NCBI GenBank assembly: GCA_030037525.1
Contig: JASHRC010000201.1
Span: 1 to 59,081, forward strand
DNA length: 59,081 nt
Direction: 5' to 3'
DNA from: Candidatus Acidiferrales bacterium
Lineage (GTDB): Bacteria; Acidobacteriota; Terriglobia; Acidiferrales; UBA7541
Part shown: piece after piece, positions 1,721-25,383 of the stretch
How positions within the stretch are numbered: position 1 is the stretch's first letter
Layout of the letters: every line of letters begins with the position of its first letter
Notes under the pieces: generated by a model
Told to the model about the DNA's origin: nothing
What the model saw: only the letters and a program-made list of their open reading frames with translations
Database searches by the model: none
Translations under genes and position numbers: made by a program

Positions 1721-2106
1721 CCGAGTATTTCACAGTCAAGCGTATTGATAATTCGCGGCTGTCGCGCCCAGTCGCGGCCAGCGAACTTCAGGATTTTCGT
1801 CGGAGGCTTTTGGTCGGAGCGGCGGTAGCCACCTTGCTGCTGTCCTATGCCTGGCAGCACTTCGAGTGCATCCAGATTCGTTACCAACTCGAGCAGCTCG
1901 CGAGCGCGCGCGCCCAGGCTGCCGAACTCAACCAGCAACTGCACTTGGAAATTGCGACGCTGCGCTCGCCCATGCGCGTGGATGCCATTGCCAGGAATCA
2001 GCTGGGATTGACCGTTCCCGTATCCGGGTTTTCGGCTCCGGCCAACGCGGCCAGCGACGGCGTGCTGGCCGATGCGCGCCCGGTGGGGCCGTCTGATCGC
2101 CCCTGA
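1717..2106 (+). CDS. ftsL: Cell division protein FtsL-like
   Basis: Small single-TM protein with coiled region (QLEQLASARAQAAELNQQLHLEIATLRSP) between rsmH and ftsI; position and topology. Confidence 0.75.
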   Translation: MTEYFTVKRIDNSRLSRPVAASELQDFRRRLLVGAAVATLLLSYAWQHFECIQIRYQLEQLASARAQAAELNQQLHLEIATLRSPMRVDAIARNQLGLTVPVSGFSAPANAASDGVLADARPVGPSDRP

Positions 2107-2252
2107 TATCCGCACAGGAGATCGGCATGAAACAGTCGACCGCTCATCGAGAGTGGTCCCCCCGTGGCGCGTTCAGCCGCTCGGCAGGAGCGGCGTCTTT
2201 GGCGTGAACACCGCCGCCGAGGCATGATTTCCGATCCGGAAGGCCGGAGTCC

Positions 2253-4298
2253 ATGGAGCAGCGCAGTCCGCGTCTTCGCTGGCTCGTCGTTTGGTCGCTC
2301 GCGATCGCCTGGATCGCCGTCATTCTGGCTCGCCTGAGTTATCTGCAGCTTGTCTGCTACAGCGAATACCTCGCCAAGGCCCTGCGTCAACAGCAGCGCA
2401 TTTTCGAAATCAGCCCGATGCGCGGCACGATTTACGACCGCAAGGGCCGCGAATTGGCCGTCAGTTTGCCGATGGATTCCGTCTTTGCTGATCCGGCCGA
2501 GATCACCGACGTGGCCATGGTGGCGCGGCTGCTCTCGCGCGTGCTGGATCTTCCCGCCGAAGATCTGGAAGCCAAAATCGAGCAGGCACACACACCGGTG
2601 CGACTCGCGCGGAAGGTTCCACCCGACGCCGTGCAGCGAGTCCAGGAGATGAATCTGAAGGGCGTGTTTTTCCAAAAGGAAAACCGCCGCGTCTATCCGC
2701 AGAGGGAACTCGCTGCCTCCGTACTCGGCTACGTGGACGTGGACGAGAAGGGCATCGGCGGAATCGAGTATGCGCTCGACAAGCAAATACGCGGGCGGCC
2801 CGGCAAGATGATGGTGATGGCCGACGGGCGGCGTCAGTCCTACGACCGCAGCGAAGCCGCCGCCGCCCCGGGCGCGAGCGTGACGCTGACGATCGACGAA
2901 ACCATCCAGTATATTGCGGAAAAAGAGCTTGCCACGGCAATTGAAACCACGCATGCCAAAGCGGGGATGGTGGTCGTCCAGGATCCCAACTCGGGCGAGC
3001 TGCTGGCCATTGCCAACTGGCCAACCTTCGACGCCAACGATCCGGGGAAATATCCCGATGAGGATCGCATCGACCGTGCCGTTGCCTCGGCCTACGAGCC
3101 GGGTTCGACCTTCAAGGTGATTACGCTCACCGGCGCCCTAGAAAACGGCGTGGTCACTCCGGATGAAATGATTGATTGCCAGATGGGGCAAATCCTGCTG
3201 GGTGGGCGGGTGATTCACGACTGGAAGAAATTCGGCCTGCTGAGCGTGCGCCAGATTCTGGCCCAGTCGAGCGACATCGGCGCGATCAAGTTGGCTCTGC
3301 GTCTGGGAGGACCGAGATTTTACGATACGGCTCGCGCCTTCGGGATCGGACAACTCACGGGAATCGAACTGCCGGGCGAGAATCGCGGGCTGTTGCGGCC
3401 CGTCGAGAACTGGTCGGCAAATTCGATCGGATCACTGGCCATAGGCCAGGAGGTCAGTGTCACCCCCATTCAGATCGTTTCGGCGATTTCGGCGGTCGCC
3501 AATGGAGGGACGCTCTACCCGCCGCACGTCGTGCGTGAAATTCGTGGCGGCGAGCCGAGCGCCCTGCGCCCGCTGCCCGAGTCGCGGCAGGCTACCGACG
3601 CCCGCACCGCAGCCACGATGCGCGATCTGATGGAAGGCGTGATGCTTGACGGCACAGGCAAGCATGCACAGCTGGACGGCTACACCTCGGGAGGCAAGTC
3701 CGGAACTGCGCAAAAAATCGATCCCGCGACGGGTCGGTATTCGCGCACGCAGTACAACTCGTCGTTCGTCGGCTTCGCGCCGGTGAACACCCCCGCGATC
3801 GCGATTCTGGCGGTGCTCGATTCGCCGGTGGGGCCGCACCACGGGGGAGAAGTGGGCGGCCCGGTCGTCAAGCGCGTAGCCGAGCAAGTGCTGGCGTATC
3901 TCGGCGTGCCGCACGACGTGCCCTGGCCCTCCGACCTCGAGACAGCCCAAAATTCCTCTCGCGCGTCGCCGAAGAGATCCCGCGAAACCGCCGGTGCGGG
4001 CCAGGAGCGATTCGCCGATGCGATCTCGCGGGCCAGCCAGGGGCCGTCGGGCTTAGCTCCGACAGCGGCTTTTGGAGATGCCAGCATCCAAGTTCCAAGC
4101 CTCGCGGGACAAACTGTCCGCAGCGTCACGGAATTGTGCTCGAAGCTGGGCCTGGCGCCCTTGCTGATCGGCACAGGAGTTGCAGTAGCGCAGTTTCCCG
4201 AGGCTGGGACAGAGGTCTTGCGCGGCAGCCAGGTGACCATCCGTTTTGGAAGGCCGGCGGAGCTAGAAAGCATTGCGGCGCGAAGGGGCGGGAATTGA
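2253..4298 (+). CDS. ftsI: Division-specific penicillin-binding protein (FtsI/PBP3) with C-terminal PASTA domain
   Basis: EPGSTFKVIT (SxxK), SSD, KSGTAQ motifs; C-terminal PASTA-like VPSLAGQTVRSVTELCSKLGLAP. Confidence 0.93.
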   Translation: MEQRSPRLRWLVVWSLAIAWIAVILARLSYLQLVCYSEYLAKALRQQQRIFEISPMRGTIYDRKGRELAVSLPMDSVFADPAEITDVAMVARLLSRVLDLPAEDLEAKIEQAHTPVRLARKVPPDAVQRVQEMNLKGVFFQKENRRVYPQRELAASVLGYVDVDEKGIGGIEYALDKQIRGRPGKMMVMADGRRQSYDRSEAAAAPGASVTLTIDETIQYIAEKELATAIETTHAKAGMVVVQDPNSGELLAIANWPTFDANDPGKYPDEDRIDRAVASAYEPGSTFKVITLTGALENGVVTPDEMIDCQMGQILLGGRVIHDWKKFGLLSVRQILAQSSDIGAIKLALRLGGPRFYDTARAFGIGQLTGIELPGENRGLLRPVENWSANSIGSLAIGQEVSVTPIQIVSAISAVANGGTLYPPHVVREIRGGEPSALRPLPESRQATDARTAATMRDLMEGVMLDGTGKHAQLDGYTSGGKSGTAQKIDPATGRYSRTQYNSSFVGFAPVNTPAIAILAVLDSPVGPHHGGEVGGPVVKRVAEQVLAYLGVPHDVPWPSDLETAQNSSRASPKRSRETAGAGQERFADAISRASQGPSGLAPTAAFGDASIQVPSLAGQTVRSVTELCSKLGLAPLLIGTGVAVAQFPEAGTEVLRGSQVTIRFGRPAELESIAARRGGN

Positions 4299-4366
4299 AC
4301 GTAAGCCTTACGCCACCGCCCCAGTTGAGAAACAGCCGAAGGCGCGCGAAACTGAGGGTTTCAGGC

Positions 4367-5863
4367 ATGAAACTGGGGGAACTTTTGTCGGGCCTAGAAG
4401 TTGCTCGCTGGACCGGGCCGCGAGATCTCGAGATCGCCTCGGTTGGTTACGACAGCCGCAGCGCGGGGCCGGGAGGCCTGTTTTTCGCACTGCATGGCGA
4501 AAAGCTTGATGGAACGAAATTCGTAGATGACGCGGTCGGCCGCGGCGCGATTGCCGTGGCGAGCGCGGCGGTGCGGCCAGAATCGCTTCCCAACCGTGTG
4601 ACCTGGATCGAACTAGAGGCGGGATCGGAGCGGCGCAGCTTGGCCCGCGTAGCAGCGAATTGGCACGGGCACCCAGCCGAAGCTCTGAAGCTCGTCGGCG
4701 TTACGGGGACAAACGGCAAGACCACTACGACGTTTCTCGTGGATTCGATCCTGCGAACCGCCGGACACATTACCGGCTTAATTGGCACGACCGGCTATCG
4801 CACTCCCAAGGGAAGCCGAGAGGCTCGGAACACTACTCCGGAATCGCTCGATCTGCAGCAGATGTTCGCGGAGGTTCGCGACAGAGGTGGCACGCACGTC
4901 GTCCTGGAAGCGAGTTCTCATGCGCTGGCGATGGAGCGGCTGTGGGGTTGCCATTTCGCGGTGGCAGCGTTCACGAATTTGACCCGCGATCATCTCGATT
5001 ATCACAAGACGCTCGAGGACTACTTCGCGGCGAAGCGGCTGCTGTTTCGCGGCACCGGTGCCGGAGCGCCCGATGTGGGCGTGATCAACGCCGACGACTC
5101 CCATTCGGCCGAGCTTTCCGGCCTGGCCGGCCGCACGCTCACCTTCGGCTTGGACACCGCGGCCGATCTGGTGCCCAGAAACCTTCAGCTCAGTTTCGAG
5201 GGCCTCCGCTTCGCGGCGGACACGCCGGCGGGAACGGTCGAGGTGCGCTCGCCGCTGGTGGGGCGGATCAACGTTTACAACATCCTGGCCGCGATTGGCA
5301 CGGGGATCGGCCTGGGGGTTTCCTGCGCAAACATCTCCGAAGGCATCAGGAAGCTCGATCTGGTGCCCGGGCGGTTCCAGACGATCGACGAGGGGCAGCC
5401 GTTCCTGGTGGTGGTGGATTATGCGCATACCGATGATGCGCTGCGCAATTTGATTCTGACGGCGCGCGAGCTCGGTCGCGACGCGCGAATCATCACGGTG
5501 TTCGGGGCAGGCGGAGAACGCGACCGGACCAAACGTCCGCTCATGGGCGAGGCGGCAGGTTCGCTGAGCGATTTTGTCGTGCTCACCAGCGATAATCCGC
5601 GCGGCGAAGATCCCTTGCGCATTATCAATGACGTGGTCGTGGGCTTGCAGAGGGTCAAGGCGAACTATCGCATCGAGCCCGAGCGCGAGCAGGCGCTGGA
5701 AGCCGCTATCGAAGAGGCGCGCCCGGGAGATATCGTGCTCCTGGCTGGCAAGGGCCATGAGACCTATCAAGTGCTGGCCGCCGGAACGGTGGAGTTTGAT
5801 GATCGCGCGCGAGCGCGGGAGATCCTGCGGCGCAAGGGATATTCCAAAGTCCCGGCGAGGTGA
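4367..5863 (+). CDS. murE: UDP-N-acetylmuramoyl-L-alanyl-D-glutamate--2,6-diaminopimelate ligase MurE
   Basis: GVTGTNGKTTTTFL, DNPRGEDP (meso-DAP motif), VDYAHTDDAL; internal ATG 4367 preferred to track start. Confidence 0.95.
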   Translation: MKLGELLSGLEVARWTGPRDLEIASVGYDSRSAGPGGLFFALHGEKLDGTKFVDDAVGRGAIAVASAAVRPESLPNRVTWIELEAGSERRSLARVAANWHGHPAEALKLVGVTGTNGKTTTTFLVDSILRTAGHITGLIGTTGYRTPKGSREARNTTPESLDLQQMFAEVRDRGGTHVVLEASSHALAMERLWGCHFAVAAFTNLTRDHLDYHKTLEDYFAAKRLLFRGTGAGAPDVGVINADDSHSAELSGLAGRTLTFGLDTAADLVPRNLQLSFEGLRFAADTPAGTVEVRSPLVGRINVYNILAAIGTGIGLGVSCANISEGIRKLDLVPGRFQTIDEGQPFLVVVDYAHTDDALRNLILTARELGRDARIITVFGAGGERDRTKRPLMGEAAGSLSDFVVLTSDNPRGEDPLRIINDVVVGLQRVKANYRIEPEREQALEAAIEEARPGDIVLLAGKGHETYQVLAAGTVEFDDRARAREILRRKGYSKVPAR

Positions 5864-7360: not shown

Positions 7361-8494
7361 ATGCTCTATTACCTGTTTTTCTTCGGGCTGCGCCGACACT
7401 TCAGTCCGCTGAACGTATTCCGCTACATCACGGTGCGCACGGCCGTGGCAAGCCTGACGGCGCTCGCCCTCTCGCTGCTGCTCGGTCCGTGGATGATCGA
7501 ACGGCTGCAGGCCATGCAGGTCAAGCAATACATTCGCGAGGAAGGTCCCCAGCGCCATCATGCCAAGGCCGGAACGCCGACGATGGGCGGGCTGCTGATC
7601 GTCTCGGCGATCGTGATTCCCACTCTGCTTTGGGCGGATTTGCGCAACACCTACGTGCTGCTGGCGGTGGGCGCGACGCTGGCGTTTGGGGCCATCGGTT
7701 TCGTCGACGATTACAACAAAGTCGTTCGCAAGCACAACCGGGGCCTGACGGCGGCCGGAAAATTCCTGTTGCAGGTTCTGACCTGCGCATTTGTGGGCGC
7801 CGTGCTGGTCGGGCTGCAGGCGCAGCACAAATACTCCACGCAATTGAGCGTGCCGTTCCTGAAGAAGCTGCATCCGGACCTGGTGGTCGAGCCGGCTCGC
7901 AACCTTCCGGTGATTTGGCCGATTGCCTATGTTCCGTTCGTGCTCTTTCTGGTGCTGGTAATCGCCGGGCTTTCTAACGGCGTGAACCTGACAGACGGTC
8001 TTGACGGACTGGCCATTGGCTGCGTTCTGATTACCGCGGTGGCCCTTACGGTCATCACCTATGTTTCCAGCAACGCGCGTTTTTCCGAATATCTCGAGAT
8101 TCAGAAAATTCCCGATGCGGCAGAGCTGACAATCTTCTGCGGCTCGCTGGCGGGCGCCTCGTTGGGATTTCTTTGGTACAACGCCCATCCGGCGGAGATG
8201 TTCATGGGAGATGTCGGCTCGCTCGCCCTGGGCGGAGCGATCGGCACCGTCGCGGTGATCTTGAAGCAGGAAATTCTGATGGTGTCGATCGGAGGAATCT
8301 TTGTGGTCGAATTGCTGTCGGTCATCCTCCAGGTGGGCTCGTTCAAGTTGACCGGAAAGCGCGTGTTTCGAATGGCGCCGCTGCACCATCATTTCGAGCT
8401 GGGCGGTTGGAGCGAATCCAAGATTATCGTGCGATTCTGGATCGTGGCGCTGGTGCTCGCGCTTTTTTCGCTGACGACTTTGAAATTGAGGTAG
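7361..8494 (+). CDS. mraY: Phospho-N-acetylmuramoyl-pentapeptide-transferase MraY
   Basis: GTPTMGG, NLTDGLDGLAIG, FMGDVGSLALGG, APLHHHFELGG; internal ATG 7361. Confidence 0.97.
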   Translation: MLYYLFFFGLRRHFSPLNVFRYITVRTAVASLTALALSLLLGPWMIERLQAMQVKQYIREEGPQRHHAKAGTPTMGGLLIVSAIVIPTLLWADLRNTYVLLAVGATLAFGAIGFVDDYNKVVRKHNRGLTAAGKFLLQVLTCAFVGAVLVGLQAQHKYSTQLSVPFLKKLHPDLVVEPARNLPVIWPIAYVPFVLFLVLVIAGLSNGVNLTDGLDGLAIGCVLITAVALTVITYVSSNARFSEYLEIQKIPDAAELTIFCGSLAGASLGFLWYNAHPAEMFMGDVGSLALGGAIGTVAVILKQEILMVSIGGIFVVELLSVILQVGSFKLTGKRVFRMAPLHHHFELGGWSESKIIVRFWIVALVLALFSLTTLKLR

Positions 8495-18276: not shown

Positions 18277-18759
18277 ATGAGAACCCTTTATGGAGAGTTG
18301 TTCGGTTTGCGCCATGAGTTCGACGAGCTGTTCAATCGGCTTCTGACGGGAAGGCCGCTGGCAGAATGGCCAGAACTGCCCGTATTTGGCAGAGAGTTTG
18401 GCATTACTCCTGCGGTTGAAACTTATGTCGACAAACAAACCAATAAGTATGTCTGCCGCGTGACCCTGCCGGGCATCGAGCCCAAGGATTTGGAAATCAG
18501 CACGCAGGGACACGTACTCACAATTCGCGGCGAGCGAAAGTTCCAGCACGCCGTCAAGGAAGTTGAGTTCATGGAGCGGGAGGTTACCTACGGCAAGTTC
18601 GAGCGGACGATTACCCTGCCAGAGGGAGTGATGGTGGAGAAGCTCGTCGCCGAGTACGGCAGCGGCGTGCTCGAAATCACAGCTCCGATCGCCACAGCCG
18701 CACTGCCGCGGAAGGTTGAAATCAAGACCCTGCCATCGGTGAAGCAAGTCGCCGCCTGA
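18277..18759 (+). CDS. Small heat shock protein, Hsp20/alpha-crystallin family
   Basis: PAVETYVDKQTNKYVCRVTLPGIEPKDLEISTQGHVLTIRGERKF, YGKFERTITLPEGV, YGSGVLEIT. Confidence 0.95.
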   Translation: MRTLYGELFGLRHEFDELFNRLLTGRPLAEWPELPVFGREFGITPAVETYVDKQTNKYVCRVTLPGIEPKDLEISTQGHVLTIRGERKFQHAVKEVEFMEREVTYGKFERTITLPEGVMVEKLVAEYGSGVLEITAPIATAALPRKVEIKTLPSVKQVAA

Positions 18760-18798
18760 ATCACAGCAGGAAGCGAGCGACCGAATAGGCACCGCGAG

Positions 18799-18829
18799 CG
18801 GCCCGGGATCCTCCCGGGCCGTTCAATTT
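18799..18829 (+). terminator. Hairpin terminator downstream of hsp20
   Basis: 10-bp stem CGGCCCGGGA / TCCCGGGCCG with 3-nt loop, followed by TTCAATTT. Confidence 0.55.
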
Positions 18830-18915
18830 CTAACTCCGTCTGAGCTCGAAGTTCGGCTCGCCAGGCAGCCCCGGTTTCAGGACTCCGCCCTGTTCCCATG
18901 CCAGCGGCGAGGGGG

Positions 18916-19158
18916 TCATTCCACCGCAATCTTCGAGCCGTGCTGTACTTTGGCCGACAACTTCTCGATGCGATGGTCGATTGCGGCGCGAATGCCCTTC
19001 AAGAATTCGACGCGCGAATTCACGAAATGCTGGCGGACCGCCGGAGGGACCTCAAAACAGCTCGCGATCTGATCGATAAACGCGTGCACTTCCTGCGGCG
19101 CACCGCGACCGCTCGCCGGGCTCCCACTGGCAGGATTCGACGTCTCGTCGTTGGTCAT
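18916..19158 (-). CDS. Hypothetical small protein, translationally coupled to the ArsA-like ATPase
   Basis: 80 aa; ATGA overlap (start 19158, upstream stop 19155); charged helical C-half RQHFVNSRVEFLKGIRAAIDHRIEKLSAKV. Confidence 0.6.
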   Translation of the reverse strand: MTNDETSNPASGSPASGRGAPQEVHAFIDQIASCFEVPPAVRQHFVNSRVEFLKGIRAAIDHRIEKLSAKVQHGSKIAVE

Positions 19159-20345
19159 TGGGGTGTCTCCTTCATCTCCACTCTCAGAATCTGATTATCC
19201 AACTTTGCTCGCGAAGGGACCAGCGTCGCCATCGACCGGGGCAAACCAATGTGGCGGCGCAGCGTGCCGATTTCCACAACCAATTCCTCGCCCTTCTTGA
19301 ACAGACCCACTTCGCCCTTCGCGGCGAAGGGCAGGATCAGCCGAATCTCATAGACCCCGTCCCTTTTTCCGAACGTGTACGGTTTCTCGGTTCGGGTCAC
19401 CGCCGCTGGGTCCCGGTCATGATACAGCACCCGCGCCAGTTCCTCGAGACGTTGCTTGCCAAGGACTTCGCGGGCGAACAGCGGGACGCGCTCGACCGGA
19501 ACCGGCGCGAAATACTCCTCAATCTCTTTGAGCACCTTGTCCTGAGACATGTGCCATTCGCTGAACCACGTGTCGACTACTTCTGCTGGCAGCAGCCGGT
19601 TGACGATCACCGAGTCCACGGTCAGGCCATGCAGCGAAAAATAGACAAACGCGCGCTCGGTCTCGCGCAGCACCATCTTTTCCGGGTTGGTGACCAATCG
19701 GACGCTGGTGGTGTACGGATCTTCCATCAAGTCAGCCACGCCTTCGAGTTTCCCGAACAGCTCGCGGATATTCGCAAAATAACTGTCGGTCGGCAATTCG
19801 AACGGCGCCACCCGATTGGCGATCGGCCGCACCGCCTTGAGCAAGTTCCGCTGAAACGGGAAGATGTGCTTCATGTACCAGTCGAGCGTGGTCGGCATGC
19901 TGACGAAGCGCATGGACTCGGCGGTCGGAGCCGCGTCGAGCACGATGACGTCGTAGCGCTGTTCGCGGCGGTACTGGTTGATGTACATCATCGCGCTGAG
20001 TTCTTCCATGCCGGGCAGAATCGCCAGCTCTTCGGCCTCCACCCCGCTGATTCCCGTCGTGCGCAGCACCGAGGTGACGTAGGAGGAAATTTCCTGCCAG
20101 TGGCGCTTGATCTCTTTTTGAATATTCAGTTCGAAGATCGAAAGGCGATCGCTAATGGGCAGCGGGTCGGAGGTTTGGGTGTGGAAAAGGTCGCCCCCGA
20201 GGTCGAAAGAGTCGGCCAGGCTGTGCGCGGGATCGATGCTCATCACCAGCGTGCGTCGACCGAGTTCCGCCAGCCGGATGCCGGTTGCGGCGGCCAGGCT
20301 GGTCTTGCCGACGCCGCCCTTCCCGCTGAACAGTAAAATCCTCAT
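19155..20345 (-). CDS. ArsA/GET3-family ATPase with C-terminal HSP20-like domain
   Basis: Deviant Walker A FSGKGGVGKTSLAA, DPAHSLADSFD, LDAAPTAESMRF; C-terminal ArsA_HSP20-like segment DGVYEIRLILPFAAKGEVGLFKKGEELVVEIGTLRRHIGLP; no Cys. Confidence 0.88.
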   Translation of the reverse strand: MRILLFSGKGGVGKTSLAAATGIRLAELGRRTLVMSIDPAHSLADSFDLGGDLFHTQTSDPLPISDRLSIFELNIQKEIKRHWQEISSYVTSVLRTTGISGVEAEELAILPGMEELSAMMYINQYRREQRYDVIVLDAAPTAESMRFVSMPTTLDWYMKHIFPFQRNLLKAVRPIANRVAPFELPTDSYFANIRELFGKLEGVADLMEDPYTTSVRLVTNPEKMVLRETERAFVYFSLHGLTVDSVIVNRLLPAEVVDTWFSEWHMSQDKVLKEIEEYFAPVPVERVPLFAREVLGKQRLEELARVLYHDRDPAAVTRTEKPYTFGKRDGVYEIRLILPFAAKGEVGLFKKGEELVVEIGTLRRHIGLPRSMATLVPSRAKLDNQILRVEMKETPQ

Positions 20346-20410: not shown

Positions 20411-21235
20411 GTGCTTCGGCTGGAGACAGAAACGGGCTGGTGGCTGGTCACCCATCCCGACCACGCGCGACTTGCCGGCGCCTTCGCCGAGCGCTGGGGA
20501 AACGACCGGTTCCGGCCGCCTGAACCGCGCGCTCGCGTCCTTCAGGGAATCTCGCGGCATGACGATGGCTGGGCGGCTCGCGATGCAGCTCCGCTCGTGA
20601 CACATGAAGGCAAGCCCAGCGCATTCTCGTTCGAGCTGGTCGGCAAGTACTCTGCTTTCGAGCAGATCGATCTAGCCGATTATCTCGCCGTGCGCGACCG
20701 CGCGGTCTGCCTGATAGCTGGGGAGGATCCCTATGCTGCAATTCTTATCTCCATGCACACCTATAACTTACTGAGCGAGCATGCAGACCGTTCGACGATC
20801 GCTCCCTCCGATCTGCCTCTGCTCGATCGCTTCCTTGAGCAGCAGAAAGCATTTCAACTGTCGCTTCAGCAGAAGATTGCGGGCGATACGAGCTTGCCTG
20901 CCGAACAGAAAACCGAGTCGGCCATCCTCGACCATTTCCGCTTGCTGCAAGCGACCGATTATCTTTCCTTGCTTACCTGCGTGGACTTCCGTCCTCCCGC
21001 CCACCTGCTACACCCACTGCCTTTGCAAGGGGGAAACTACAGCCGCATCAGCGTGCGCTGGCGCGGATCGCGCGATTTCCTGCTCGACCCGTATCCGTTT
21101 GCGGAGCCTGAGCTGAGCTTCCTATTTCCCGCGCGACACGTCGAGGGAAAGCTCTTTTCTTCCTCTGCGGAGCTGCAGGAACGGTTCAGGGCCGCACCCA
21201 TCCAGACACTCTCGGTCACCGTGAGCCGAGCCTAA
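20411..21235 (+). CDS. DUF3891 family protein
   Basis: WWLVTHPDHARLAGAFAERWG, ISRHDDGW; family resemblance by motif. Confidence 0.75.
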   Translation: MLRLETETGWWLVTHPDHARLAGAFAERWGNDRFRPPEPRARVLQGISRHDDGWAARDAAPLVTHEGKPSAFSFELVGKYSAFEQIDLADYLAVRDRAVCLIAGEDPYAAILISMHTYNLLSEHADRSTIAPSDLPLLDRFLEQQKAFQLSLQQKIAGDTSLPAEQKTESAILDHFRLLQATDYLSLLTCVDFRPPAHLLHPLPLQGGNYSRISVRWRGSRDFLLDPYPFAEPELSFLFPARHVEGKLFSSSAELQERFRAAPIQTLSVTVSRA

Positions 21236-21348: not shown

Positions 21349-24300
21349 TCAGAAGAGAACACTCAGCGACATTTGAATCTCTCTTGGGCCGCCAATGGTC
21401 TTGTTCACGTTGCCCAAGCCTGCTGGGCAATTGTAGAAGCCAGTGTTTGTGCTGTTGCAGGCTGTTGGACGCGGCGGCGTGCCGAGCGTCGGAAAGTCGT
21501 TGAAGAACTCGTTCTGGGTCACGTCATCGACGGGAAGGTCGAAGCTCGGCGTGTTGGTCACGTTGAATACGTCGAAGGAGTACTTTGCCGAGACCCTCTC
21601 GGTAATCTTGGTAGTCTTGACGATGGACATGTCCGCGCGCTTTTGCCACGACTGTCGGAAGATGTTGCGCTCGCCACTCGGAATGAAGTTGGTCTCATAG
21701 AGATCGCCCGGTGGGATCGCTCCGTTCAGAGCACCCGGACTGAGAAGCGGCAGCGTGAAGCAGGATGCCTTCAGCGCCGGCCGGGTGCCATTCCCATAAG
21801 CTCCGATGTAGCCGGTTACCGCTGACTTTGCCGTACAGCCAGGCGCTAGCGGAACGATCGGGTTGGTGATGCCGTCGGAGGTACCGTAGAAAATGCTGCC
21901 GACGGCCCCTGAATAGTCGATCACGCTGAAAGGCTGCCCGCTCTGGATGATTGCGGTGCCGGCCAGCGCCCAGCCGTCGATGATCTTGCCCTGCCAGGAG
22001 GACTCGGAGGCAAAATTGTGGAGTCGCAGGAGGTAGCTCATGTTGACGACATGCGTGCGGTCGAAATCGGAATTCCCGTAAGCCGAGCGCAGATTCAGCG
22101 GATTGTTGCCATTATAGAAAAGGCCGAGGGCACTCTGTTCGTCGAGCGAGTGGGAATAGGTGTAGGAGACGCCGATCTGAAGACCGTGGCTCATGCGCTT
22201 CTCGACGTGCGCCTGTAAAGCGTTGTACGCGGAGACCCCGGCCGCTGTGTAAGACTCCGACTCTGAAGAGTAGCCGATGTAGGGAACACGGAGGTCAACG
22301 TTCCCCCCTTCATAGTTTGTCTGGTACAAGGCTCCACCCGGTAACGTGGCAGGGGGCTGCACGCTGTAGCCGTAGGTGTACGACTGTGGATAGAGCGCGC
22401 CAGCCGGGCACATCGGCTGCACGCCCTTGACGATGCCACCGCCGCAAAGCGGGTAGCTGGGCGATGCAATGCCCGCCTGATTGAAGGGGATGGGAATCAC
22501 CTCGTGGCGACCCAGGTTGCCGACATAGCCGACATCGATGGCTAGATCGTTGCGCGGCTGCCATTGGATGTCGAGCGTTTGGTTCATCGTGTAGGGAAGC
22601 TTGTTGGCGCGATTGTACACGGCGAAGGCGAACAGCGACTGGATGTCTTCGATTCCCTGAGCTATGCATGTTCCCGGGGCGCAGCCAGGGGCGTGGGGGA
22701 AATACTGGTCAAGCGTAGCTGGGTTGCCGGTGGGCGGCGGACCGAGAGTTCCTCCCCAGGGATTTTCAAACGAGCCGCCATACGGGATGACCGCACTATA
22801 GGGGTTCGTGGCCGTCGCCGTATTGCAAGTCGGAACGAAGCCCAGATAATCGCTAGAGATGTCGGTGCAAGACTGGGCCAGGACGTAGGGGGGCGACTGA
22901 TTGACGCCGAACGGTCCGGCAGGGACGATCCCCGCAGCGAAGCCTGGAGACAGGAAGGAGAACAGTTCGCCGCGGTCGTAGTACATGCCCCAACCAGCGC
23001 GGACTACGAGCTTGTTGTTGAATATCTTGGGGCTCCAGGCGACACCGATGCGCGGTGCAAAGCCCCATTGCCTGCCGGTCAGAGTAGAGGCGCTGACGCC
23101 TTTGGTCGGGAATTTCGCATTATTGCCAGCAATAATGAAGCCGGTTTCGGGATTGCCGTTTGCGTCCAAGTTGAACGAATCGGTCACCGGATTATAGGAG
23201 TAACGACTGGGATCGAAGTTGTATAGCAGGCCGTTCTTTTCCCTGAGTGCGCCGTCATAATCCCACCGGAGGCCGGCTGTCACGCTCAGATTTGGACGAA
23301 GCTGAAATTTGTCCTGGATGTACTCGCCGGTTTCATTCGCCAGGTAATGGCGCCTGGCATTTCCCTGCAGGAATATGGTGCCGATGAAACCGTCGGTGGT
23401 GTAGGGCGTCGGCAAACCCTCGACAAATTGCGAGAAGTCGGCAAAGCCGATCATGCCCTTGTCGGTACGGTCGTCACGCGCGTTCATCTGCGTATGGGAC
23501 CACGTTCCCCCAAACGTGATGGTGTGCCTGCCACGAATCCAGATGGCGTCAGCAGAAGGCATGAAACGATTCTGGAAGATACCCGTGAAGGCGCCTTGAG
23601 ACGCAGCCGTCTCGCCGAATTGCAGGGCTTCCAAGGCAACGGGGCTGCTGGTGCCCAAAGCGTCGGCGATGGTGATCCCCGGAAACGTGGTGTCGCCCAC
23701 GTTAAAAGCGTTGATTCCCAGATCGGCGGGAGTGAAGCCGGGAGGCTGCGCAACTGTGCTGTAGAGTTTTTCACGGATGAAACCAAAGACTTCGGCGACG
23801 TTGAAAGTCGGGGTTAGAGTTTGCGTGTTGGTAATCGTAGCAACCTGGCTGCCGGCATCCAAGTGCTGGCTGAAGCCCGCGACGCTTGAATAGGCGAACG
23901 GTGCGGTGCTGGGGTCATGCTGGTAATAGTATTTCAGAGCCAGTGTGTCCTTGGGCGTAGCGATGAAATCGACATTCCCGACCGCCTGATTGGCCAGGAA
24001 ATAGGCTGTGCCGGGAACGATGGCAGTCTCGGGGAAGTTAAAACTGGGACTGTCGTAGCTGTCGGCATACGGAACCATATACTGCCCATTGGGCAATTTC
24101 GCTTGGAGCAGTTTGAGCGCGATCGGGTCGATATTGGCGGTGGTGATGGGAATATTGCTGCCGAAGGGAAACTCGTTGTTGACGACGTCCACCACACACT
24201 GCTGAAAGGCGAGCTGGGTCCGGTTGGCCACACAGTTTGGGTCCACAGCGGGAGTGAAGGCAGTCGGCACAACCACCTTCCCGAGGCCAATCTCCTGGTC

Positions 24301-25383
24301 GGTGTCGTGGACGTTTTGGTAGGCGATAAAGCCGAAGAGCTTGTTCTTGATGAGCGGCCCGCCGAGGGTCCCGCCGGGCACTTCGCGATGGAGCTCGGGA
24401 ACCTTTTTGGTAATGTTCGGGTCCTGTTTGAAGAAGAAGGGCGCAGCGTTGAGCCAATCGGTGGCGCGATGCAGGTAGGCTTGGCCGTGGATGTCGTTTG
24501 TGCCCGAGGCTGTGCTCATGTCGATATGCGCACCGCTGGTTGAGCCTTGTTGGGCGTCGTACATCGAGGTATTGACGCGCACTTCCTGAATGGTCTCCGG
24601 AGGCGGGGTCGGAAGCGCCTGGCCAATTGCAAGATACGGAGATGCTGTGCTCTGAATCTCGAACGCGGCCGTGCTGGCGGCACCGCTGACGCCTGTGTTG
24701 TTCACCACCCGAGCCGAAGAAACCTCGCTGGTGCTCTTGCCGTTAAAGAGATTCTTCGCGTCGACGCCGTTGAGTAGGAACGTATTGCTGGTGTCACGCT
24801 GGCCGTTAGCCCAGATCGGCTGATTGCCCAACCCGGCGTTCACCCCATTCCCACTCGCAAGCTCCGCGTTCACGCCGGGAGAAAGAATGGCCAGTCCCGT
24901 GAAGCTGCCGGTTGGCAAAGGGACATTCTCAAGTTGAACTTTGTCGAGCACGTAGCCATTGGTCGTATCTACCGCATTGACCAGGGGAGTTTCCTGAACG
25001 GTGACGGTGGTACTGACAGCCCCGACGCTGAGGGATGCGTTCACGGTGGCGGTGCGATTGGCTTGCACTGTGATGGAAGGAATCCTCTGCGTTTGGAACG
25101 ACTGGTGCGTGAATGTCAGGGTGTAAGGGCCGATTGGCAAGTCCACGAATGTGTAGAGGCCGCTCGAATCGGTCTTGACCGTGCGCGTAAGAGCGGTTTG
25201 ATCGCCCACCACTGTGACGATCGTATCGGGAAGCGCGGCACCGGAGCTGTCTGCCACGGCGCCGGTGATTCCGCCAAGAGTCTGCTGGGCAGGTGTTGGA
25301 ATGGAAAACACGAGAGGAACCAAGAGAAGGGAAATCACAGCGAAGATGGAAAGACCCGTCCGCTCGTTCATCGGCGTAAACAC
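21349..25383 (-). CDS. TonB-dependent receptor, Oar-like, with N-terminal carboxypeptidase-regulatory-like domain
   Basis: Signal peptide; GGITGAVADSSGAALPDTIVTVVG...TDSSGLYTFVDLPIGPYTLTF; plug-like region; C-terminal beta-signal ending in F (MSLSVLF). Confidence 0.9.
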   Translation of the reverse strand: MFTPMNERTGLSIFAVISLLLVPLVFSIPTPAQQTLGGITGAVADSSGAALPDTIVTVVGDQTALTRTVKTDSSGLYTFVDLPIGPYTLTFTHQSFQTQRIPSITVQANRTATVNASLSVGAVSTTVTVQETPLVNAVDTTNGYVLDKVQLENVPLPTGSFTGLAILSPGVNAELASGNGVNAGLGNQPIWANGQRDTSNTFLLNGVDAKNLFNGKSTSEVSSARVVNNTGVSGAASTAAFEIQSTASPYLAIGQALPTPPPETIQEVRVNTSMYDAQQGSTSGAHIDMSTASGTNDIHGQAYLHRATDWLNAAPFFFKQDPNITKKVPELHREVPGGTLGGPLIKNKLFGFIAYQNVHDTDQEIGLGKVVVPTAFTPAVDPNCVANRTQLAFQQCVVDVVNNEFPFGSNIPITTANIDPIALKLLQAKLPNGQYMVPYADSYDSPSFNFPETAIVPGTAYFLANQAVGNVDFIATPKDTLALKYYYQHDPSTAPFAYSSVAGFSQHLDAGSQVATITNTQTLTPTFNVAEVFGFIREKLYSTVAQPPGFTPADLGINAFNVGDTTFPGITIADALGTSSPVALEALQFGETAASQGAFTGIFQNRFMPSADAIWIRGRHTITFGGTWSHTQMNARDDRTDKGMIGFADFSQFVEGLPTPYTTDGFIGTIFLQGNARRHYLANETGEYIQDKFQLRPNLSVTAGLRWDYDGALREKNGLLYNFDPSRYSYNPVTDSFNLDANGNPETGFIIAGNNAKFPTKGVSASTLTGRQWGFAPRIGVAWSPKIFNNKLVVRAGWGMYYDRGELFSFLSPGFAAGIVPAGPFGVNQSPPYVLAQSCTDISSDYLGFVPTCNTATATNPYSAVIPYGGSFENPWGGTLGPPPTGNPATLDQYFPHAPGCAPGTCIAQGIEDIQSLFAFAVYNRANKLPYTMNQTLDIQWQPRNDLAIDVGYVGNLGRHEVIPIPFNQAGIASPSYPLCGGGIVKGVQPMCPAGALYPQSYTYGYSVQPPATLPGGALYQTNYEGGNVDLRVPYIGYSSESESYTAAGVSAYNALQAHVEKRMSHGLQIGVSYTYSHSLDEQSALGLFYNGNNPLNLRSAYGNSDFDRTHVVNMSYLLRLHNFASESSWQGKIIDGWALAGTAIIQSGQPFSVIDYSGAVGSIFYGTSDGITNPIVPLAPGCTAKSAVTGYIGAYGNGTRPALKASCFTLPLLSPGALNGAIPPGDLYETNFIPSGERNIFRQSWQKRADMSIVKTTKITERVSAKYSFDVFNVTNTPSFDLPVDDVTQNEFFNDFPTLGTPPRPTACNSTNTGFYNCPAGLGNVNKTIGGPREIQMSLSVLF

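Follow-up and report, generated by a model that had tools for sequence, protein, structure and literature searches.

The 80-aa open reading frame that overlaps the gene of a Get3d-like ATPase in an acidobacterial genome is a conserved partner of ATPases combining a Get3 fold with an alpha-crystallin domain (aCD), a point overlooked in the original prediction for this locus. The partner ends in a short tail that resembles the IXI motif of sHSPs, and we consider it moderately probable that proteins tagged in this way bind in trans to a Get3d-type ATPase that handles clients together with a helical co-factor, the tail occupying the groove of its aCD. The architecture of the ATPase is already known; the tailed partner system is a new variation on it.

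The window, that is, the whole stretch of 59,081 nucleotides analysed here (contig JASHRC010000201.1 of a Candidatus Acidiferrales bacterium, assembly GCA_030037525.1), contains hsp20, the 80-aa ORF and the 396-aa ATPase gene exactly as first described, with hsp20 in convergent orientation; the 80-aa ORF and the ATPase gene overlap by ATGA (Table 1). An ftsQ-ftsA-ftsZ cluster ends at the ATPase locus; its FtsZ was assigned by Pfam, and FtsQ and FtsA by eye. Judged from its pattern, the promoter-like TATAAT so close to the ATPase start codon would produce a leaderless mRNA, and the inverted repeat is a possible shared terminator of the hsp20 and partner/ATPase units. A DUF3891 gene (20411-21235) is divergent from the ATPase gene; it was rejected as a part of the module, its neighbour status not being conserved in acidobacterial loci. 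The minus strand at 21349-25383 encodes a 1344-aa outer-membrane beta-barrel protein (OMP_b-brl_4) with an N-terminal CarboxypepD_reg domain.

Table 1 Features of the hsp20, partner and ATPase region, with positions in the window.
Feature	Position	Strand	Basis
Stand-alone hsp20, 160 aa	18277-18759	+	Pfam HSP20 match
13-bp inverted repeat separating hsp20 from the partner/ATPase unit	18796-18824	no strand	Sequence repeat
80-aa partner ORF	18916-19158	-	Unnamed family; adjacent homologues in relatives
Partner C-terminal tail KIAVE, putative IxV plug motif resembling sHSP IXI	18919-18933	-	Sequence motif
Get3d-like ATPase gene, 396 aa	19155-20345	-	Pfam, AlphaFold, Foldseek
ATGA stop/start overlap coupling ATPase and partner	19155-19158	-	ORF positions; several relatives share the 4-nt overlap
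Alpha-crystallin (ArsA_HSP20) domain, residues ~323-392, seven strands	19170-19379	-	Pfam PF17886, AlphaFold, Foldseek
Deviant Walker A P-loop GKGGVGKT, residues 8-15	20301-20324	-	Conserved in the whole aligned family
Promoter-like TTTTCA-17-TATAAT, 5 nt upstream of the ATPase start codon	20351-20379	-	Pattern match only

Pfam ArsA_ATPase matched residues 1-308 of the ATPase with 300.6 bits, and ArsA_HSP20 (PF17886) matched residues 329-391 with 61.9 bits against a cut-off of 22.5; the score with TIGR00345 was 242 bits (cut-off 135). In an AlphaFold model for which 43 sequences from the window and its relatives were the input (mean pLDDT 86), residues 323-392 form a seven-strand sandwich with pLDDT of about 84-93, in line with the HSP20-like fold predicted for this segment. 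Foldseek aligned the entire chain, including the aCD, to NosGet3d (8egk, 401 columns) and AtGet3d (8elf, 424 columns), and archaeal Get3 aligned to the ATPase part only. The alignment shows an intact Walker A, switch I Asp, switch II and beta7 Asn, together with an intact A-loop-like segment. The sequence, the AlphaFold model and the Foldseek match indicate that the ATPase belongs with Get3d and is not of a novel kind. It is Get3d-like in a broad architectural sense and is not an orthologue of the phototroph proteins in the narrow sense, because it scored 143.7 bits with the NCBIfam NosAFP equivalog NF050088, below the cut-off of 325, and falls outside the subclade of the phototrophs. A tree of 104 proteins, built without plant and All4481 rows, placed the aCD-type rows in one clade (support 100) apart from distant Get3/ArsA rows. 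The phototroph subclade (support 90) contained Cyanobacteria, Chlorobiaceae, one Chloroflexus copy and Chloracidobacterium-like rows, and the window ATPase was grouped outside it with acidobacterial and deltaproteobacterial rows. Three genomes (G096, G123 and G165; loci L079, L082 and L092 with their counterparts), which are probably Chloracidobacterium, carry up to three divergent aCD-Get3 copies each, partly in the phototroph subclade and without tailed partners.

The translation of the ATPase contains no cysteine, as had been claimed, and the argument drawn from this, that both the CXXC and the metalloid-binding cysteines are lacking, stands with one qualification: only 3 of 47 acidobacterial copies, including the window ATPase, are wholly Cys-free. 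The segment in which a CXXC would lie has no Cys in the aligned relatives either, and these keep a switch-II Cys (DCAPT) at the place of DAAPT in the window ATPase. The missing CXXC is thus general to the ATPase family, and the total lack of cysteine is peculiar to the window copy, since the relatives retain the switch-II Cys. Membership in the ArsA_ATPase Pfam family could be taken to mean that the protein is an ArsA-like ATPase handling arsenite or antimonite with an unusual tail domain, and in one close relative (locus L073, genome G203) an island of arsR, acr3, arsC and an arsH-like reductase gene (1900-5700) lies about 4 kb or less from the ATPase. We regard such a function as extremely unlikely, given the single ATPase domain without metalloid cysteines and a host genome with no match to acr3 or arsB anywhere. 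In addition, an ars permease or island near the ATPase was found in only one of 40 genomes with the ATPase, namely G203, where divergently oriented genes separate the two. No ars gene was present at the window locus, in agreement with the original statement that arsB, arsC, arsD and arsR are not nearby, and no conserved linkage to arsenic genes emerged in relatives. Together with the Get3d architecture, these findings support the earlier view that the locus does not serve arsenite resistance.

The original prediction had also counted the stand-alone Hsp20, which matches PF00011 with 66 bits (cut-off 20.8), as a part of the module. Examination of 46 other acidobacterial loci of the ATPase revealed no hsp20, and the closest relative (L198; ATPase 76% identical) likewise has none in the roughly 8 kb around its ATPase. 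Physical proximity in the host genome and the HSP20-like fold on the ATPase would fit a single heat-stress chaperone system of ATPase and Hsp20 with the small ORF as an accessory, but hsp20 converges on the ATPase operon as a unit of its own, the 13-bp inverted repeat lying between the two, and together with the missing hsp20 in relatives this makes such a system very improbable. Because none of the 46 other loci has one, the stand-alone hsp20, one of five sHSP genes in the host genome, is an incidental neighbour and not a conserved part of the module.

A search with the single 80-aa sequence hit only 14 genomes, several of them by chance, so that a profile was needed; matches beside the ATPase were already placed by this search in several genomes, and reading of the acidobacterial loci revealed a small gene directly downstream of the ATPase, usually overlapping it. 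With the partner profile (A1, E<1e-5), 36 of 396 acidobacterial genomes were positive. The partner was present in 34 of the 42 genomes with an aCD-ATPase versus 2 of the 354 without (Fisher 4e-39, uncorrected for relatedness). It adjoins the ATPase in 31 of these 34 genomes (28 downstream and 3 upstream by hand count), mostly with overlap. The core of the partner is a helix of the form HxxxxxxExLKxxRxxIDxRIExL, and most partners are a charged helix with no obvious transmembrane-like segment. Searches against Pfam, NCBIfam, PHROGs and the PDB gave no match, so that assignment to a known family was rejected, and no description of the partner was found in the open-licence PMC text. Between the window and its nearest relative, the partner is 41% identical with dN/dS of about 0.35 and the ATPase 76% identical with dN/dS of 0.11, with synonymous sites near saturation; the partner family is fast-evolving. 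One contig (L084) carries two partner genes (2027-2248 and 7759-7980), with no full ATPase found beside the second, which is either a duplication or an assembly artefact.

An adjacent tailed small gene was also found in Desulfobacterota/Myxococcota, Chloroflexota, Actinomycetota, Planctomycetota and Bacillota, and among archaea in Ferroplasmaceae, Archaeoglobaceae and Methanomassiliicoccales. The partner family stands beside aCD-Get3 ATPases in seven phyla, archaea among them; in the remotest groups (some Actinomycetota, as well as Ferroplasmaceae, Methanomassiliicoccales and Bacillota), the partner was recognised by position and tail with no profile match. Within the phototroph subclade, by which Get3d is defined in the literature, no partner was found beside the ATPase. 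Nor was one detected at other places in the genomes searched for it, seven cyanobacterial and four Chlorobiaceae, and two Chloroflexus genomes gave weak, tail-less similarities. The aCD of phototroph Get3d may be used otherwise, or the partner may have been lost there.

While the helix varies, the C terminus of the partner stays [KR]-[IV]-x-[IVL] followed by a single residue or, rarely, by up to three; the window has KIAVE, and relatives have KVAVD, KIEVE, KVPIK, RIEVQ and KIEIK, among others. Judged by position alone, 36 of 92 aCD-type loci have a strict tail on the downstream ORF; among distant relatives, which mostly lack the aCD, this was the case at 0 of 33 loci, and of 917 long background ORFs 13 were tailed. 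When homologues were collected with a profile from which the tail columns had been removed, and which was therefore blind to the tail, almost every complete homologue from an aCD genome was tailed; some had a longer end or L replacing I/V, and the tails at L050 and L087 were degenerate or buried. None of the three homologues in genomes without an aCD-ATPase (L199, L200 and L204; two in G376 and one in G389) was tailed (Fisher 8e-4 on small, hand-counted numbers). G376 does have Get3/ArsA proteins, of which the single-domain copy stops before an aCD. The tail of the partner family depends on the aCD. The tail-less homologues L199, L200 and L204 point to a wider role of the helix family beyond genomes with an aCD-ATPase. 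At another locus (L069, 1101-2396), the ATPase itself has a C-terminal extension ending MTRIEVQE, a tail in cis, and no partner-family match was found in that genome.

The same tail occurs on a second kind of protein. At the Dethiobacter locus, VVKKIDIE forms the C terminus of a MarR regulator encoded upstream of the ATPase. In a directed search of 200 Bacillota genomes, eight had an aCD-ATPase, and in all eight a MarR-type protein ending I-x-I-E (KKIDIE, KKINIE, NIDIE, KKIKIE, RKIIIE and similar) is encoded directly upstream of it (L210-L216 and L224); the family was assigned by Pfam for one of these proteins, by alignment for three more and by eye for the rest. Most of these genomes also have a small downstream partner, often ending PIE or LIE. 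No MarR-type protein with an I-x-I-E tail was found in six loci of aCD-less ATPases. The occurrence of one tail on two unrelated neighbours, only together with the aCD, is the strongest argument that the aCD would read the tail, and the upstream position of the tailed MarR suggests a tagged autoregulator. The chances are about even that, in bacteria and archaea alike, the aCD of Get3d-type ATPases reads a short C-terminal tag, namely [KR]-[IV]-x-[IVL] followed by Lys or an acidic residue, which serves to recruit unrelated proteins, the helical co-factor and the Bacillota MarR, in trans. The tail might also occur on a MarR protein if it were a delivery signal read by the aCD and the partner a specialised client or structural protein co-produced with its chaperone, as the overlapping genes and close pairing might suggest. 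Such a role seems decidedly unlikely, for most partners do not show an obvious transmembrane-like segment, as expected of Get3-fold cargo, and almost every tailed protein in the examined loci is encoded directly beside the ATPase.

In sHSPs, the C-terminal IXI motif binds the hydrophobic beta4-beta8 cleft of a neighbour's aCD (PMC4823740). By analogy, the partner tail would occupy the groove of the ATPase aCD. At locus L068, only a single stop codon separates the ATPase from the partner, which is in the same frame, and the read-through chain of both was folded by AlphaFold with unpaired rows for each part. In this tethered chain, tail strands 456-458 and 460-462 flank I458-N459-I460 with pLDDT of 85-90, and the N-terminus of the partner (392-413) is below 50. 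Since the chain is artificially tethered, the predicted strand form of the tail is consistent with docking, as a single and indirect result, and is not proof of it. Partner-less Get3d, too, conserves the hydrophobic positions of the aCD, and a search for aCD residues that track the presence of the partner gave no clear signal.

A tail in the groove could also act as a blocker or decoy, by which the partner would keep the ATPase from co-assembling with stand-alone sHSPs, or would compete with sHSP tails to regulate them, with no hand-over of clients. The stand-alone Hsp20 of the window ends RKVEIKTLPSVKQVAA, with an RKVEIK tail of the same motif class, and the number of sHSPs in the host genome is compatible with this. 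We nevertheless hold it unlikely, because the conserved helix and the same tail on MarR would be left unexplained and the operon shows no linkage to sHSPs in other genomes.

We therefore return to docking of tagged partners as the preferred reading. The Get3d-type ATPase would capture hydrophobic, probably tail-anchored (TA), membrane-protein segments in the Get3 client site and would work together with the small helical co-factor, the 80-aa partner. Client capture by the window ATPase is suggested by the literature, because TA proteins are bound by Get3d, and contact between its aCD and the Get3 part is much like that made by Get4 (PMC10248533). The aCD would serve to dock adaptors and would not act as a holdase, and the tail would be a transferable tag, which the Bacillota MarR carries too. 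As for the helix of the partner, one may guess at hand-over of the client or capping of the client groove. It is likewise a guess that the tailed MarR of Bacillota couples the occupancy of the ATPase to the control of its own operon. The chaperone/client-targeting module of the original prediction gains support from the Get3d architecture and from the TA binding known for the Nostoc and Arabidopsis proteins (PMC10248533).

The family was tied to photosynthesis in the structural paper on Get3d (PMC10248533). The aCD-Get3 architecture is now found in many lineages beyond the phototroph clade, including archaea, mostly together with a gene for a tailed protein. The partner tail gives the Get3d-type aCD a first testable role in the form of a concrete hypothesis, and candidate partners can be named for a bacterial and archaeal Get-like pathway; for Bacillota, transcription is predicted to respond to the client load. 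If the aCD does read the tag, the prokaryotic Get-like pathway would use an adaptor code of its own, with transcriptional feedback built in.

Among known systems, Get3d is the closest. Its crystal structures from Nostoc and Arabidopsis (NosGet3d/All4481, PDB 3igf and 8egk; AtGet3d, PDB 8elf; PMC10248533) share the Get3 fold and the C-terminal aCD with the window ATPase over the full length, as well as the deviant Walker A GKGGhGK[ST] and the lack of CXXC. NosGet3d and AtGet3d are degenerate, whereas the window ATPase keeps switch I, switch II, the beta7 Asn and the A-loop, and in these intact motifs it resembles the less degenerate green-bacterial and Sll0086-type copies (PMC10248533). TA protein binding was demonstrated for Nostoc and Arabidopsis Get3d only, and neither the aCD nor any partner was needed for it; the role of the aCD was left unclear (PMC10248533). 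A tailed partner gene adjoins the window ATPase, whereas none was found beside phototroph Get3d. Get3/TRC40 with the pre-targeting factors Get4/5 likewise pairs a Get3-fold ATPase with an accessory protein, and the Get3-aCD interface of Get3d resembles the Get3-Get4 interface (PMC10248533). However, the window partner has no sequence relation to PDB or Pfam families, and the CXXC of the zinc-bridged dimer of canonical Get3/TRC40 is absent from the window ATPase. ArsA has a homologous ATPase domain, but in two tandem halves with metalloid-binding cysteines, in contrast to the single half of the window ATPase, and its ars linkage is not conserved here. With the sHSPs (Hsp20), the system shares the aCD fold, here on the ATPase, and the putative [IV]-x-[IVL] plug, here at the C terminus of the partner. 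In contrast to sHSPs, motif and groove are split over two proteins: the partner carries the tail without an aCD, and the aCD is a fused domain of the ATPase.
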